NCBI GenBank assembly: GCA_013519935.1 | Contig: JACDUA010000003.1 | Span: 1 to 64,000 of the forward strand | Reading direction: 5' to 3' | Source: Ectothiorhodospiraceae bacterium WFHF3C12 | GTDB lineage: Bacteria > Pseudomonadota > Gammaproteobacteria > Nitrococcales > Nitrococcaceae | DNA length: 64,000 nucleotides | Shown: positions 34,148-40,393 of the stretch, one piece after another | Numbering within the stretch: the stretch's first letter is position 1 | How the letters are laid out: each line of letters starts with the position of its first letter | Translations under genes and position numbers: made by a program | The notes under the pieces: model-generated | Told to the model about the DNA's origin: nothing | What the model saw: only the letters and a program-made list of their open reading frames with translations | Database searches by the model: none

Positions 34148-34594
34148 ATGTCCATTGATCCCAGAACGCTGTCAGGCCTGGAATTGCTGCGCCTCTCCGT
34201 GGCCGGCGAGATTCCCCGGCCTTCCATCGCCGAGACCATGGGCATGGATATGGCGGAGATCAACGAGGGTGAAGTCATCTTCATGGCCCGTCCCGACCGG
34301 CGGCACCTGAACCCAATGGGCGGCGTCCACGGCGGGTTCTACGCGACGGTGCTCGACTCCGTCACTGGATGCGCCGTGCACACCATGCTGTCGCCGGGCG
34401 ACACCTACGGCACGGTCGACCTGAACGTGAAGATGCTCAGGGCGGCCAGCGTGGACACCACACTGCGGGCCGTCGGCCGGGTCGTCCACGTCTCCCGTCA
34501 GCTGGGCGTGGCCGACGGCCAGATCCTCGACGAGGAAGGCCGGCTCTATGCCCACGCCACCGCCTCCTGCCTGATCAAGCGGGCCGGAAAGTGA
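34148..34594 (+). CDS. PaaI-family acyl-CoA thioesterase
   Basis: 148 aa, hotdog fold. HLNPMGGVHGGFYATVLDSVTGCAV contains the PaaI core (N-P-x-G-x-x-H-G-G and the following Asp). TVDLNVKMLRAASVDTTLRAVGRVVH and VADGQILDEEGRLYAHATASCLI are the usual strands. It is related to phenylacetate-pathway and 1,4-dihydroxy-2-naphthoyl-CoA thioesterases. AGGA 8 nt upstream favours the ATG at 34148; an ATG at 34139 is in frame. It ends the SDR-isomerase-monooxygenase run, fitting release of a CoA product. Confidence 0.88.
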   Translation: MSIDPRTLSGLELLRLSVAGEIPRPSIAETMGMDMAEINEGEVIFMARPDRRHLNPMGGVHGGFYATVLDSVTGCAVHTMLSPGDTYGTVDLNVKMLRAASVDTTLRAVGRVVHVSRQLGVADGQILDEEGRLYAHATASCLIKRAGK

Positions 34595-34797: not shown

Positions 34798-36444
34798 ATG
34801 GCAGGCGACTGGTTCTCCGCGTCCGTGGCGGGTTTCATGCCCCACGGTGGGTGTTATCTATGGCGTCCCGACGTGCTCTGGCTGCACGTCGTCTCCGACA
34901 CCCTGACCGGGCTTGCCTATTATTCCATTCCGGTGGCGCTTCTGGTCTTCCTGCGAAGACGCGAGGACGTCGTCTATCACTGGATGTTCCTGCTCTTCGC
35001 CGCCTTCATTTTCGCCTGCGGCACGACCCACCTGTTTTCGGTCTGGAACGTCTGGAACGCCCACTACTACACCGAAGGTGCGGTCAAGGGCGCGACCGCC
35101 GCGGTATCCGTGCTGACCGCGATACTGCTCTGGCCGCTGATTCCCCGCGCCGTGGCCCTGCCCAGCCCCGGTCAACTGCGCGAGAGCAACACGCGGCTGG
35201 CCGCGGAGGTCGAGCGCCGGGAAGCGGTCGAGCGGGAGCTGCGGGAACACCAGGACACCCTGGAACAGCGGGTGGAGGAGCGTACGCGCGCCCTCGAGGA
35301 TCTCAACCGCACTCTGGAGCGGGAGGTGCGCGAGCGCCGCGCCGCCGAGGCGCGCTTCCGTCAGCTTTTCCAGGCGAGCCCCGACGGCATGATCGAGGCC
35401 GACGCCGAGGGTGTCGTGCAGCTGGCCAATCCCGAGGCCGAGCGCATATTCGGCTACGACAGCGGCGAGCTCATCGGGCGCGGCGTCGAGTCTCTGATCC
35501 CGGCGGGTTCGCGCGAGCAGCACGCCGAGTTCCGCCGCAGCTATGCCCGCAATCCCGAGGCGCGGCCCATGGGTCAGGGCCGCGACCTGCGGGGCCTGCG
35601 CAGAGACGGCAGGGAGGTACCGCTGGTCATCGGGCTGAGTCCGATCACGGACGGCGAGGACGCCGGGTCGGTGCTCGCCTCGATCATCGACATCAGCGAT
35701 CGCAAGCGCCTGGAGCAGCGCCTGGCGGCCAACAACCAGGCATTGCGCCGCTCCAACGCCGAGCTGGAACAGTTCGCGTTCATCGCCTCCCACGACCTGC
35801 GCGAGCCCCTGCGCAAGATCCAGTCTTTCTCGAACCTCCTGACCTCCGGCCGTTATGGGCGGTTCGACGAACAGGGCAACGAGTTCATCGGCTACATCAC
35901 GAGCGCGGCCGAGCGCATGGAGGCGCTGCTGGACAGCCTGCTCCGCTACAGCCGAATCACGTCCAAGGCCGCGCCTTTCGAGTGGCTGTCACTGGACGAC
36001 GTGCTGCGGGCGGTACAGGCGGACCTTCAGCTGCGCCTTGAAGAACGCGGCGCAATACTGGAATGGGCGTCTCTGCCCGAGATCGAAGCCGACGCCGCAC
36101 AGATGCGTCAGCTCGTGCAGAACCTGGTTGGCAACAGCCTGAAATACGCGCGGGAGGATTTGCCGCCGCGCGTCCGGATCAGCGGTGAGATCGGCGACGA
36201 CGGTCTATGCCGTCTGACGCTGTCCGACAACGGCATCGGCTTCGACCGTAGTTACGCCGAGCAGATCTTCGAGGTGTTCAAGCGCCTGCACGGTCGCGGC
36301 GTTTACGAGGGCACCGGCATGGGATTGGCGATCTGCCGCAAGATCGTTGAGCGGCACGGCGGTCATATCGAGGCCGACAGTGCACCCGGCCAGGGCGCCA
36401 CCTTCCACATCACCCTGCCGGTGACGCAAGGGGACCATTCATGA
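34798..36444 (+). CDS. Histidine kinase with ethylene-receptor-like N-terminal domain and PAS
   Basis: 548 aa. Three membrane helices (about 28-120) carry the plant/cyanobacterial ETR1 ethylene-binding pattern: SDTLTGLAYYSIP, and FACGTTH. The key positions keep ETR1 spacing: Asp34-Tyr41 (7 apart), Cys74-His78 (4 apart, copper ligands) and Asp34-Cys74 (40 apart). A coiled coil (RESNTRLAAEVERREAVE to RRAAEARF) leads to a PAS domain (about 190-300). HisKA follows with FIASHDLREPLRKIQSF (His near 329) and HATPase with NLVGNSLKYA, DNGIGF and GTGMGLAI. Its stop overlaps the next receiver (ATGA). A predicted membrane sensor of ethylene or a similar small hydrophobic ligand; ligand identity is inference. 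Confidence 0.87.
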   Translation: MAGDWFSASVAGFMPHGGCYLWRPDVLWLHVVSDTLTGLAYYSIPVALLVFLRRREDVVYHWMFLLFAAFIFACGTTHLFSVWNVWNAHYYTEGAVKGATAAVSVLTAILLWPLIPRAVALPSPGQLRESNTRLAAEVERREAVERELREHQDTLEQRVEERTRALEDLNRTLEREVRERRAAEARFRQLFQASPDGMIEADAEGVVQLANPEAERIFGYDSGELIGRGVESLIPAGSREQHAEFRRSYARNPEARPMGQGRDLRGLRRDGREVPLVIGLSPITDGEDAGSVLASIIDISDRKRLEQRLAANNQALRRSNAELEQFAFIASHDLREPLRKIQSFSNLLTSGRYGRFDEQGNEFIGYITSAAERMEALLDSLLRYSRITSKAAPFEWLSLDDVLRAVQADLQLRLEERGAILEWASLPEIEADAAQMRQLVQNLVGNSLKYAREDLPPRVRISGEIGDDGLCRLTLSDNGIGFDRSYAEQIFEVFKRLHGRGVYEGTGMGLAICRKIVERHGGHIEADSAPGQGATFHITLPVTQGDHS

Positions 36445-36890
36445 GCGAGCTGCAGCCCATCCCGATTCTGATGGCGGAGGACGACCCCGAGGATCGCCTG
36501 CTGACCCGCGAGGCGTTCCGGGAGGGGCGCCTCGCGAACCCGCTGTTCTTCGTCGAGGACGGCGAAGCCCTGATGGACTACCTGCGACGCCGCGGAAGCT
36601 ACGCCGATGAAGCGCTATACCCGTTCCCCGGCGTCGTGCTGCTGGACCTGAACATGCCGCGCAAGGACGGCCGCACCTGCCTCGCCGAGATCAAGCGCGA
36701 CCCCGGGCTGCGGCATCTGCCCGTGGTTGTGCTCACCACCTCCGCCCAGGAAGAGGAGGTGGTCCGCAGCTACGACCTCGGCGCCAACTCCTTCGTCAGC
36801 AAACCCGTGGACTTCAACAAGCTGGTAGGCATCGTGCAGACGTTCGGGTGCTACTGGTTCTCTATCGTGGAGCTGCCCGATGCCCCCTGA
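36441..36890 (+). CDS. Rcp1-like single-domain response regulator
   Basis: 149 aa, receiver only. ILMAEDDPEDRLLTREAF, phospho-acceptor Asp in VVLLDLNMPRKDGR, TTSAQEEEVVRSYDLGANSF and the Lys in VSKPVDFNKL are all intact. The PEDRLL/NMPRKDGR/KPVDF wording and the extended C-terminus place it in the phytochrome-associated Rcp1 group, which dimerises through that tail. It overlaps the kinase by 4 bp and the GGDEF-EAL gene by 11 bp, so it is the obvious partner of the upstream kinase. Confidence 0.92.
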   Translation: MSELQPIPILMAEDDPEDRLLTREAFREGRLANPLFFVEDGEALMDYLRRRGSYADEALYPFPGVVLLDLNMPRKDGRTCLAEIKRDPGLRHLPVVVLTTSAQEEEVVRSYDLGANSFVSKPVDFNKLVGIVQTFGCYWFSIVELPDAP

Positions 36891-38589
36891 CGTTCTGAAG
36901 GTTGCGGTCATCGAGGACGACGACGAGGACTTCGTGCTCGTCTCCGAGGCGCTCAAGGCCGCCCAGCGCACGCGCTTCGAGATCGTACACGCCGCCGGTC
37001 TCGCCCAGGGCCGCCTCGCGCTGCTCGACGACAGCTACGACGTCTTCCTGGTGGACTACTTCCTGGACGAAAACAGTGCCGATTCACTCATCAGCGAGGC
37101 ACGGCGGCTGAGCCACCCTAGCCCCCTGGTGGTGCTCACCGGCGCCGACTCCCGGGACCTCGACGACCGGCTGATCGAGATGGGTGCGGCCGACTTCCTT
37201 CCAAAGCGGGAGCTGGCGCCCGCGCTGCTGGAACGCACCATACGCCACGCCGTCGACCGCAAGCAGTCCGAGAACCAGATGGCGCGGCTCGTGAAGCAGG
37301 ACGCCCTGACCGGGCTGGGCAACCGTCAGCTCTTCGAGGAGAACGTGGAACGGGCCATCTCGCGGGCGAGGCGGCACAACGGCAGCTTCGCGATCATCTT
37401 TCTCGACCTGGACCGTTTCAAGGAGGTCAACGACACCCTCGGCCATCACGTCGGCGACCTGCTGCTGATACTGGTGGCGGACCGGCTGCAGCGCGCCACC
37501 CGGGATAGCGACTTCGTCGCTCGCATCAGCGGGGATGAGTTCACCCTGCTGCTGGACGACATCCGCGAGACGGGCGACGCCGAGATAATCGCGGAAAAGC
37601 TGCTCGATACCCTGCGGTCACCGACGCCCATTCATGACGTCACGCTGAACATCACCGCCAGCCTTGGCGTCGCCTGTTTCCCGGAACACGGCGACACGCC
37701 CATGGAGCTCATGCAGAAGGCGGATATGGCCCTGTACGAGAGCAAGCGCGCCGGCAGCGGCCGGTACCGCTTCTTCAGCCAGGAGATGCAGGCGCGGCTG
37801 GAGCGCAACATCGACATGGAGCAGGGCCTGCGCCACGCGCTGGATGCCGGCGAGCTCTCGCTGCACTTCCAGCCCATCTGGCGGTTGTCGGACCGGCGGA
37901 CCGTAGCGGCCGAGGCGCTGCTGCGCTGGCGTCACCCTGCTGGGTACATGGTTTCCCCGGCTGAATTCATCCCGGTCGCGGAGCGAACGGGGCTGATCCT
38001 GCCCGTCGGCAACTGGGTGCTGGATGAAGCCTGCCGGTTCCTGCGGCGGCTCGACGACGCAGGGCATTCCCGGCTCGATCTGGCGATCAACGTCTCGCCC
38101 AGGCAGCTCGGTCCACACACCTTCACGGAGACCGTCGAGCGCCACCTGGCTGCCCACGGCGTCGAGGCTTCGCGCCTGGAGCTGGAGCTCACGGAGGAGA
38201 CGTTCATCGAGACCGGAGACGAGATGAAATCACTGCTGACGGATTTCCGGAAGCTGGGTTGCAGCATCGCGATCGACGACTTCGGCACCGGCTACTCGTC
38301 CCTGCGCTACCTCAAGCACTTTCCCGTTCACCGGCTGAAGATCGACAAGAGCTTCATCTCCGGCGACGGCGCGGACGTTGCCGAGCCGGCGATCACCCAG
38401 GCCATCGTCAATCTCGCAAAGTCCCTCGGCCTGACCCTGGTGGCGGAAGGCGTCGAAACCCCGCAACAGGCTGATTTCCTGCTCGCCGAGGGTTGCCAGT
38501 TCGGCCAGGGCTTCCTCGTGGCACCGCCGATGGAAGCCGATGAATTCATCCAGTTCCTGCAGAACCAGCATCGTGACGGACCGCCGTGA
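36880..38589 (+). CDS. Receiver-GGDEF-EAL cyclic-di-GMP enzyme
   Basis: 569 aa. The receiver (1-125) has VIEDDDEDF, LVDYFLDENSAD (Asp near 52), LTGADS and the Lys of LPKREL. GGDEF domain (about 135-300) has DALTGLGNRQLFEENV, LDLDRFKEVNDTLGHHVGD and a signature written SGDEF, a form compatible with activity. The EAL domain (about 310-560) has AAEALLRWRHP, the TEETFIE helix, DDFGTGYSSLRYLKHFPVHRLKIDKSF (cited by DDFGTGYS) and VAEGVET, so its metal and catalytic residues look complete. It is probably bifunctional with one activity dominant, controlled by phosphorylation through the operon's kinase. It overlaps the upstream gene by 11 bp. Confidence 0.93.
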   Translation: MPPDVLKVAVIEDDDEDFVLVSEALKAAQRTRFEIVHAAGLAQGRLALLDDSYDVFLVDYFLDENSADSLISEARRLSHPSPLVVLTGADSRDLDDRLIEMGAADFLPKRELAPALLERTIRHAVDRKQSENQMARLVKQDALTGLGNRQLFEENVERAISRARRHNGSFAIIFLDLDRFKEVNDTLGHHVGDLLLILVADRLQRATRDSDFVARISGDEFTLLLDDIRETGDAEIIAEKLLDTLRSPTPIHDVTLNITASLGVACFPEHGDTPMELMQKADMALYESKRAGSGRYRFFSQEMQARLERNIDMEQGLRHALDAGELSLHFQPIWRLSDRRTVAAEALLRWRHPAGYMVSPAEFIPVAERTGLILPVGNWVLDEACRFLRRLDDAGHSRLDLAINVSPRQLGPHTFTETVERHLAAHGVEASRLELELTEETFIETGDEMKSLLTDFRKLGCSIAIDDFGTGYSSLRYLKHFPVHRLKIDKSFISGDGADVAEPAITQAIVNLAKSLGLTLVAEGVETPQQADFLLAEGCQFGQGFLVAPPMEADEFIQFLQNQHRDGPP

Positions 38590-39037
38590 CACAGCAACGC
38601 GTCCCGACGACGGCATCGACATTCTGCTGTCAGTCGCCGACGGCGACGTTCGTCGCACATTGCAGCAGACCCTGCGCAGCAGCCGGCTCGGGCACCGGCT
38701 CACCCTCGTCGACAGCACCGAAGCGATGTTCCGTTACCTCGAGGACACCATCCAGCGTGCACGTCCCCTGCCGAACCTCGTTCTGCTCGGCCTCGATCGC
38801 GATGGCGGCGAGGACGTCCGGGTCATGCAGGCGCTGAAGGCCGACCCCGAACTGCGCCCCATCCCGGTCATTGTCCTGGTCGGCCGCGGAGACGGGATAC
38901 GCACCCGGCAACTCTACGAGCTGGGCGCCAGCTCGGTGGTCCGCGTGCCCCTGCACTTCGCGGATCTGGTGGACATCATGCGGGTCCTTGAGCGCTATTG
39001 GGGCACGGTCGCCAGGCTACCCGGGACAGACCGTTAG
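38573..39037 (+). CDS. Degenerate receiver (pseudo-receiver) protein
   Basis: 154 aa from a GTG at 38573, overlapping the GGDEF-EAL stop by 17 bp. The fold is Rcp1-like: IDILLSVADGDVRRTLQQTL, MFRYLEDTIQRARPLPNLVLL, ALKADPELRPIPVIVLVG and GASSVVRVPLHFADLVDIM align with the strands of the 36441 gene. However, the phospho-acceptor Asp is Gly (NLVLLGLD), the Thr is Val and the Lys of KP is Val (RVPLHF). It should not be phosphorylated and may instead compete for dimerisation or for the kinase. The exact start is uncertain because the frame is open further upstream. Confidence 0.72.
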   Translation: MTDRRDTATRPDDGIDILLSVADGDVRRTLQQTLRSSRLGHRLTLVDSTEAMFRYLEDTIQRARPLPNLVLLGLDRDGGEDVRVMQALKADPELRPIPVIVLVGRGDGIRTRQLYELGASSVVRVPLHFADLVDIMRVLERYWGTVARLPGTDR

Positions 39038-39166: not shown

Positions 39167-40243
39167 TCAGTCTTCCCGGAAGGCCTCGGCCAGGGACCGT
39201 TCCCGCTCGCCGAAATAACGGCCCAGCAACGCCTCGAGCTGTTCGCGCTTGTCCGCCTCCGTCAGTCCGGCTTCGAGAATGGCCTGACGCTCGCTGCGAT
39301 ACAGCGCCAGCTGACGCTGCCAGGCCGCGCGATCTTCCTCGGATTCGATGGCGTCGCCGGCGGCGGCAAGGCCCAGGGCCTGGGAACGCACGAAATCCCG
39401 GAAGGCCTGGGAAGCGCCCTGCTCGCGCAGCATCCGCATCTCGCTGCGCAGCTGCCGGGCCTCGGGCGTATCGCGTCCGCGCAGGTGCATCACGCCGCGC
39501 AGGAGGTCATCCTGCAGGGCGGTCTGAAGCGCCACCCGCTGCTGCTGGCTGAGATCCGTACGGGAGGCGATGCGTTGACGCTCCAGCACGAAACGCCGGT
39601 ACGCCTCCTCGTCGGCATAGACACGCGTCGCCACGTCCGCCCCCAGGTGACGCCGGCGCAGTGCCACGAGCTCGTCGAACCGGGTACGCGCGGAGCCCGC
39701 CGCCCGGGGCCTGCTTCGCGCCTCGCGCGCCGCAAGTGCCTGGGTATAGGCCTGGTAGTCGCGCACCAGGTCGATCACCTGTTCCGCGGCGGCACCATCG
39801 AGGCGCCGGCGAAGCGCGAGTGCCATATCGTCCAGCTCACGCTCCGTCAGTGGGCGCTCCAGCCCCGCGAGCGCCTCTTCCAGGGCCTGGCCGGCCGCCT
39901 TGTCCACCACGAGCTTGCCGTGCTCGTCAAAGGCGAGGCGATCCAGGGCCTGACCGAGCACCAGGATAGCCCGCGGCGCGTCGGGGGCCTTTTCCCGGTC
40001 CGGTCGCGGCGAATCCCCGGATTCGGGCCGCGCGGGCCCGCGCTCGCCGCCCAGGAGGACGTCGAATGCGGGCCAGGACCGATCTTCGGCCTTCCGCTCC
40101 GTTTTGGGCTCGTCGGCCACCGCGGGCGCGGCACGCCGGGCCTCTTCGCCGGGCAAGAACATCCACGCGGCGAACCCGACCGCCAGGCCCGCGACCGCCG
40201 CCAGCGCGATCCGTCCCGTCCATGTCCCGGGCAACATAGCCAT
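39167..40243 (-). CDS. Lipase secretion chaperone (LifO/Lif)-like protein
   Basis: 358 aa. It has one N-terminal membrane helix (IALAAVAGLAVGFAAWMFL), then a long, almost all-helical, Arg/Glu/Ala-rich periplasmic part. LAFDEHGKLVVD near residue 110, LRRRHLGADVATRVYADEEAYRRFVLERQRI and the LLRGVMHLRGRDTPEARQLRSEM region resemble steric chaperones that fold secreted lipases. The RxxFDY motif is not fully matched, hence moderate certainty. The ATG at 40243 has GAGGA 6 nt upstream; an ATG at 40264 adds seven residues. No lipase gene is adjacent, which is unusual for this family. Confidence 0.6.
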   Translation of the reverse strand: MAMLPGTWTGRIALAAVAGLAVGFAAWMFLPGEEARRAAPAVADEPKTERKAEDRSWPAFDVLLGGERGPARPESGDSPRPDREKAPDAPRAILVLGQALDRLAFDEHGKLVVDKAAGQALEEALAGLERPLTERELDDMALALRRRLDGAAAEQVIDLVRDYQAYTQALAAREARSRPRAAGSARTRFDELVALRRRHLGADVATRVYADEEAYRRFVLERQRIASRTDLSQQQRVALQTALQDDLLRGVMHLRGRDTPEARQLRSEMRMLREQGASQAFRDFVRSQALGLAAAGDAIESEEDRAAWQRQLALYRSERQAILEAGLTEADKREQLEALLGRYFGERERSLAEAFRED

Positions 40244-40393
40244 CCCGTATCCTCGCATTCCCATGCAGGATTCTAACCCGGTCGGCGCGCGGTTCTCCCC
40301 CGCCAGCCGGCATCCACACCCCCGTCCGGGGGTGAGCGCTATACTCGCGGCAGACTACCGCGAAGCGGGCGCAACGCAGCCAGGGAAACCGCT

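Follow-up and report, generated by a model that had tools for sequence, protein, structure and literature searches.

The window analysed here, 64,000 nucleotides of Ectothiorhodospiraceae bacterium WFHF3C12 (contig JACDUA010000003.1), contains four genes on the forward strand between positions 34798 and 39037. Gene 1 (34798-36444; ORF and Pfam) encodes an ETR1_N-PAS-HisKA-HATPase sensor kinase of 548 aa, and gene 2 (36441-36890; ORF, Pfam and residue table) an Rcp1-like single-domain receiver of 149 aa with canonical acceptor Asp, Thr and Lys. Gene 3 (36880-38589; ORF, Pfam and motifs) encodes a receiver-GGDEF-EAL enzyme of 569 aa and gene 4 (38540-39037; ORF, PDB sequence match and predicted fold) an Rcp1-type pseudo-receiver. 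This is the layout proposed by an earlier sequence-only reading, and ORFs, Pfam and PDB matches bear it out. The overlaps of 4-17 bp claimed there are also recovered, with 4 nt between genes 1 and 2, 11 nt between genes 2 and 3, and 17 nt between genes 3 and 4 when gene 4 begins at GTG 38573, evidently the start used in that reading; from the alternative ATG 38540 the last overlap is 50 nt. A GGAGGAG motif lies directly 5' of the gene 1 ATG, and a promoter scan of the gap 5' of gene 1 gave no match. The flanks are a thioesterase-family ORF ending at 34594 and a convergent lipase-chaperone (Lif) family ORF on the reverse strand (39167-40264), which marks the four genes as a closed unit. A single signalling operon is the best explanation for four co-directional and overlapping genes. 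Among the eight proteins scanned between 33065 and 42136, none has a Pfam match to an HNOB or FIST sensor.

The ETR1_N domain of gene 1 (PF25487; 34873-35160, forward strand) is the sole match to this family in the genome and scores E 1.1e-37 and 128.6 bits against a cut-off of 27. PAS, HisKA and HATPase_c are the further Pfam domains, with PAS in the stead of a SynEtr1-like GAF, for which there was no match in gene 1 at E 0.001. The domain carries D34, Y41, I44, P45, I71, C74 and H78 (protein numbering), and the spacing of this DYIPICH set is that of the seven residues which we take to be those that bind ethylene in AtETR1 and which were used to score ETR1_N, copper ligands Asp, Cys and His included. 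The AtETR1 copper site is given as Asp25/Cys65/His69 in the available text of PMC12643061. All seven residues are present in gene 1 and in four orthologous operons described below (5/5), as are the kinase motif IASHDLREP and the N-box NxxxN[SA]LKY. More widely, the set is complete in 101 of 120 ETR1_N loci, comprising 78 of 80 from named genomes (the best 80 of at least 557 relatives) and 23 of 40 from samples of the class and phylum. An AlphaFold2 model of the domain has three long helices at pLDDT 90, predicted to be transmembrane as in ETR1-type receptors; a search of the PDB with the ETR1_N profile returned no solved relative. ETR1_N-domain proteins of a cyanobacterium and of Azospirillum bind ethylene, according to the portions available of PMC11819568 and PMC5812497. 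Gene 1 is consequently best described as an ETR1-type, ethylene-receptor-like kinase for which ethylene is the presumptive ligand.

Genes 2 and 3 supply the putative output. Gene 2 matches Response_reg at E 3e-18, and gene 3 matches GGDEF at E 3.9e-48 and EAL at E 1.1e-73. At 27.7 bits the receiver of gene 3 falls short of the 30.2-bit Pfam cut-off; its Asp, Thr and Lys are present in all five operons. The cyclase site reads SGDEF rather than GGDEF in the window and [SG]GDEF across the five, and the RxxD I-site, EAL, NVSP, E-TE/D, DDFGTGYSS, KIDKSF, AEG-ET and QG motifs are intact throughout (5/5). Gene 3 is therefore a predicted bifunctional c-di-GMP response regulator with both cyclase and phosphodiesterase motifs preserved. 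GGDEF-EAL proteins are abundant in the genome of the window by genome-wide search, and one related operon (L106) has a second such gene nearby (L106_1385), which falls outside the clade formed by the five gene 3 proteins (support 100/99).

Gene 4 has no Pfam match. By sequence it is closest in the PDB to Rcp1-type receivers, its AlphaFold2 model (five orthologues; mean pLDDT 77) has five alternating strands and helices, and the best PDB fold match is Rcp1 itself (1jlk, E 5.6e-9). The position of the acceptor Asp is occupied by Gly in the window, Ala in L099 and L100, and Leu in L106 and L113, and that of the Lys by Val, Met, Tyr, Val and Val in the same order. The loss of the acceptor in 5/5 is the basis for the term pseudo-receiver. 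The acceptor is kept in all 33 other receivers of the residue table, which omits nine receiver-bearing ORFs of more than 330 aa (one of them L180) and one L194 row. Two acidic residues of the pocket persist in L100 and a Thr in L113, and a C-terminal Tyr-Trp is retained in all five operons. No part of the operon diverges more than gene 4 (25-49% identity between species), whose five proteins form one clade (100/98). A spurious ORF is ruled out by the orthologues at the same place together with the predicted receiver fold. Elsewhere, locus L194 (genome G539) has tandem Rcp1-like receivers 3' of a PAS kinase (1004-1980), both with the acceptor Asp and one with Thr replaced by Val, and perhaps represents an early stage of a duplication like that behind gene 4.

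The full four-gene order recurs in 4 of 80 named-genome loci, which are the best 80 of at least 557 ETR1_N relatives and may lack the window's own records; such recurrence is beyond chance. The carriers are Marinobacter sp. ADLJBbin10, M. sediminum R65, Marinobacter sp. C7 and Saccharospirillum salsuginis (L100). Identity to the window is 53-54% for the kinase, 35-66% for the Rcp1-like receiver, 48-51% for the enzyme and 26-37% for the pseudo-receiver. The first two junctions overlap in all five operons (4+17, 4+8, 4+8 and 17+7 nt in the four relatives, with starts chosen by hand in L100, L106 and L113) and the last is variable. M. sediminum and Marinobacter sp. C7 have flanking ORFs (120 aa or longer) in common. 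No flank is common to these two, Saccharospirillum and the window (BLASTP, 1e-15) except a GGDEF-EAL paralogue; L099, a 9 kb contig, contributes little flank to this comparison. The Rcp1-like receiver of Saccharospirillum (10610-11068 in L100) has diverged much further than the genes beside it and lies elsewhere on a long branch, apart from a clade of the other four (98/99). It may have been replaced inside an otherwise conserved operon, as its placement suggests (82/88, long branches). A recent swap of the sensor is unsupported, given the single clade that gene 3, and likewise gene 4, forms across all five operons, with the Saccharospirillum receiver the exception.

ETR1_N is uncommon in these groups, being found in 2 of 54 genomes of the order, in 16 of 369 of the class sample at E 0.001 (12 above the family cut-off) and in 29 of 398 of the phylum sample (28 above), the genome of the window included each time. 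From the class and phylum samples 42 loci were fetched, setting aside five sub-cut-off places and one 26-position fragment (G306), and 40 have a recognised domain; L067 and L078 were dropped as their weak ETR1_N was missed by single-sequence search. Three loci encode ETR1_N-GGDEF-EAL fusions (L069 in G564, L072 in G671 and L080 in G004, the last from the window's own family) and four, L058, L074, L097 and the window (L079), have a receiver-GGDEF gene downstream on the same strand. This strict linkage to c-di-GMP is present in 7 of 19 gammaproteobacterial against 0 of 21 other Pseudomonadota loci (p 0.003), and in 10 of 19 against 1 of 21 (p 0.001) if divergent or convergent neighbours are allowed, with p-values that are rough because the loci are not independent. 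Nine of the 19 recognised gammaproteobacterial loci lack a GGDEF gene within 7.5 kb, and L068 and L086 consist of kinase and Rcp1 only. As a control for adjacency, kinase loci were examined for a GGDEF gene within 1.5 kb downstream: 0 of 29 had one, compared with 4 of the 16 gammaproteobacterial ETR1_N loci that are not fusions (p 0.012). This control comprises 30 high-scoring HATPase loci from ten ETR1_N-bearing genomes minus L223, itself an ETR1_N kinase; it is rich in hybrid kinases, whose next gene may lie beyond 1.5 kb, and single-sequence search recognised a kinase domain in some but not all of the 16. The GGDEF upstream of control locus L214 is part of the L097 operon. The linkage counts of 7, 10, 4 and 1 were read by eye from the locus listing.

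Among the best 80 of at least 557 named-genome loci, strict links number seven, namely the four full operons, a kinase/Rcp1/receiver-GGDEF set in Teredinibacter (L138), and ETR1_N-GGDEF-EAL fusions in a Deltaproteobacteria MAG (L105) and Nostoc sp. WHI (L133). Three further loci of these 80 have a same-strand GGDEF neighbour (L108, L145 and L151), and most of the cyanobacterial ones have no GGDEF link in the stretch examined. Similarly, no GGDEF was found in the stretch examined around ETR1_N of Azospirillum soli and A. canadense. The fusions are a candidate kinase-free route from alkene to c-di-GMP; two of them depart from the seven residues, with Pro to Ser in L069 and Asp to Asn in L072. 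At L071 (G661), L092 (G315) and L098 (G306) a receiver-GGDEF gene is transcribed divergently from ETR1_N, which represents a possible further link.

Taken together, conserved gene order, single clades and the existence of ETR1_N-GGDEF-EAL fusions provide good comparative support for a wiring from sensor to c-di-GMP, and to this extent the earlier proposal of such an operon holds. We consider it probable that phosphorylation of the bifunctional enzyme is controlled by ethylene, or an alkene like it, bound through Cu(I), and that the pseudo-receiver encoded in the same operon is a partner which cannot itself be phosphorylated. To judge from its residues, the membrane ETR1_N domain would hold Cu(I) and thereby bind the alkene. 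Bound ligand would then lower kinase autophosphorylation, since ethylene inhibits the kinase activity of AtETR1, with indirect evidence for SynEtr1, in the available text of PMC11819568. Substrates of the kinase would be the gene 2 protein and the receiver domain of gene 3, with the gene 3 enzyme thereby shifted between c-di-GMP synthesis and breakdown; the Rcp1-like protein may serve as phosphate sink or side branch. Taking no phosphate on the usual Asp, the pseudo-receiver could act constitutively to set the gain. The simplest ways would be to pair with the gene 2 protein, with which it has the C-terminal Tyr-Trp in common, or to occupy the kinase.

By analogy, the chance that ethylene lowers c-di-GMP is slightly better than even. 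Phosphorylation precedents conflict on the sign: lower phosphorylation favours the phosphodiesterase in PcrK-PcrR (PMC7700396, in part), whereas phosphorylation itself favours it in HnoB and NarR (PMC8846402, in part). In A. brasilense ethylene lowers c-di-GMP by a path from the receptor that the authors call unknown in the portion available of PMC11819568. An opposite hint, toward a sessile response, may be taken from Komagataeibacter, where ethylene raises cellulose output and no known receptor is reported in the text available of PMC4686702.

The same circuit may instead answer another signal, be it a different alkene, an alkyne, some cue from the membrane or copper status, perhaps with added input from PAS. 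With ETR1_N lacking a solved relative, the ligand is deduced from residues; PAS is present in the kinases of the window and Saccharospirillum and missing from the three Marinobacter kinases; and SynEtr1 is bifunctional, serving both light and ethylene (PMC11819568, in part). Copper ligands are also missing from some members of the family: the Asp/Cys/His trio is kept in 111 of 120 loci (80 of these the best of at least 557 named), and the other nine depart in some cases merely by Glu or Asn for Asp. At least one copper ligand is lost in L076, L064, L065, L077 and L066, and ETR1_N proteins without these ligands possibly sense something else. However, the seven ethylene residues are intact in all five operons and relatives of the domain do bind ethylene, as noted above, so that we regard a different signal as unlikely, if plausible.

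Less likely still, and in our view improbable, is that the locus is an ordinary kinase/Rcp1/receiver-GGDEF-EAL cassette in which gene 4 is a decaying and functionless Rcp1 duplicate. At a threshold of 1e-5 the pseudo-receiver profile picks up receivers in 141 of the 369 genomes of the class sample, and among 19 non-window Rcp1-type loci fetched, nine have a receiver-GGDEF(-EAL) gene beside the Rcp1 gene, six of them with a co-directional kinase. None of these six genomes is among the class-sample genomes with an ETR1_N match. The triad is thus a generic cassette for which ETR1_N is one possible input. Its use by other kinases rules out the triad as unique to ethylene sensing and makes it in itself no pointer to ethylene. 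High divergence and affinity to Rcp1 receivers are what a decaying gene 4 would show, but its frame, place and Tyr-Trp are kept in 5/5, its clade is single and a receiver fold is predicted. The gene 3 clade is also separate from the enzymes of the generic cassettes sampled; its weakly supported sister (90/89) is the L080 fusion enzyme on a long branch. No second pseudo-receiver was found in the 19 loci, where 18 keep the Asp in the residue table and L180 by alignment. The special parts are therefore the ethylene-type input and the pseudo-receiver.

The alkene-controlled operon we favour has relatives among characterised systems, each compared here with the portion available of the sources cited. 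AzoEtr1/AzoRRetr1 of Azospirillum brasilense (PMC11819568) likewise combines an ETR1-type domain, PAS and histidine kinase with an overlapping downstream receiver gene, but this is a single receiver of 135 aa in place of a c-di-GMP enzyme and pseudo-receiver. SynEtr1/UirS (slr1212) of Synechocystis also joins an ethylene-binding domain and histidine kinase to a dedicated response regulator (PMC5812497, PMC7700396, PMC11819568); there a light-sensing GAF is present and the signal goes to slr1213, which activates a small RNA, whereas the operon described here has no GAF match and an enzyme as output. PcrK-PcrR of Xanthomonas campestris places a response regulator with c-di-GMP phosphodiesterase activity under a kinase that binds a hormone, although PcrK is a CHASE-domain cytokinin receptor without ETR1_N (PMC7700396). 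The route from gas to kinase to c-di-GMP enzyme is shared with HnoX-HnoK-HnoB-HnoD of Shewanella and NosP-NahK-NarR of Legionella, where NarR is a DGC-PDE response regulator and the sensors differ in being separate haem or FIST proteins (PMC8846402, PMC6335343). The nearest precedent for the role of gene 4, by analogy, may be HnoD, which restrains HnoB and differs in being a degenerate HD-GYP protein rather than a lone Rcp1-type receiver (PMC6335343). Rcp1-type phytochrome response regulators (PDB 1i3c, 1jlk and 6xvu) are the top matches of gene 4 in both sequence and fold, and gene 2 belongs to this type too; unlike phytochrome Rcp1 systems, the kinase here is of ETR1_N type and gene 4 is without the acceptor Asp.

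Our searches of the open-access literature turned up no account of this operon, nor of ETR1_N proteins fused to GGDEF-EAL. The word 'ethylene' is absent from the main text, as available, of a 2022 census of c-di-GMP stimuli (PMC8846402). The wide range of output domains attributed to bacterial ethylene-domain proteins in the accessible part of a review (PMC7700396) means that the fusions may already figure there. The parts are thus known, and the generic nature of the triad lowers its novelty; a conserved operon with an Rcp1 partner that has lost its Asp is what we did not find described in open-access work. The suggestion that the sensor might bind a plant volatile is the component of the sequence-only reading that found no support. 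Named carriers of the full set, among the best 80 of at least 557 loci, are Marinobacter and Saccharospirillum, which is the reason for dropping it as default. To our knowledge these are marine or saline genera and not recognised as plant partners. An abiotic aquatic source of ethylene, sunlight acting on dissolved organics, is also published (PMC6682694, in part).

Tentatively, and with less confidence than in the circuit itself, we propose a dedicated pathway from alkene gas to c-di-GMP in marine and saline gammaproteobacteria, in which the kinase would drive the enzyme and the pseudo-receiver would act as brake or dimer partner. In cyanobacteria and Azospirillum, biofilm behaviour changes in response to ethylene (PMC11819568, in part), and if correct the pathway would provide a wired mechanism for an ethylene effect on c-di-GMP of the kind seen in Azospirillum without a known path. 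With a receptor-type kinase and a c-di-GMP enzyme in one conserved operon, and the same four-gene set in four other bacteria, a route from gas to lifestyle switch becomes open to direct testing, and the focus shifts from plant partners to saline waters.
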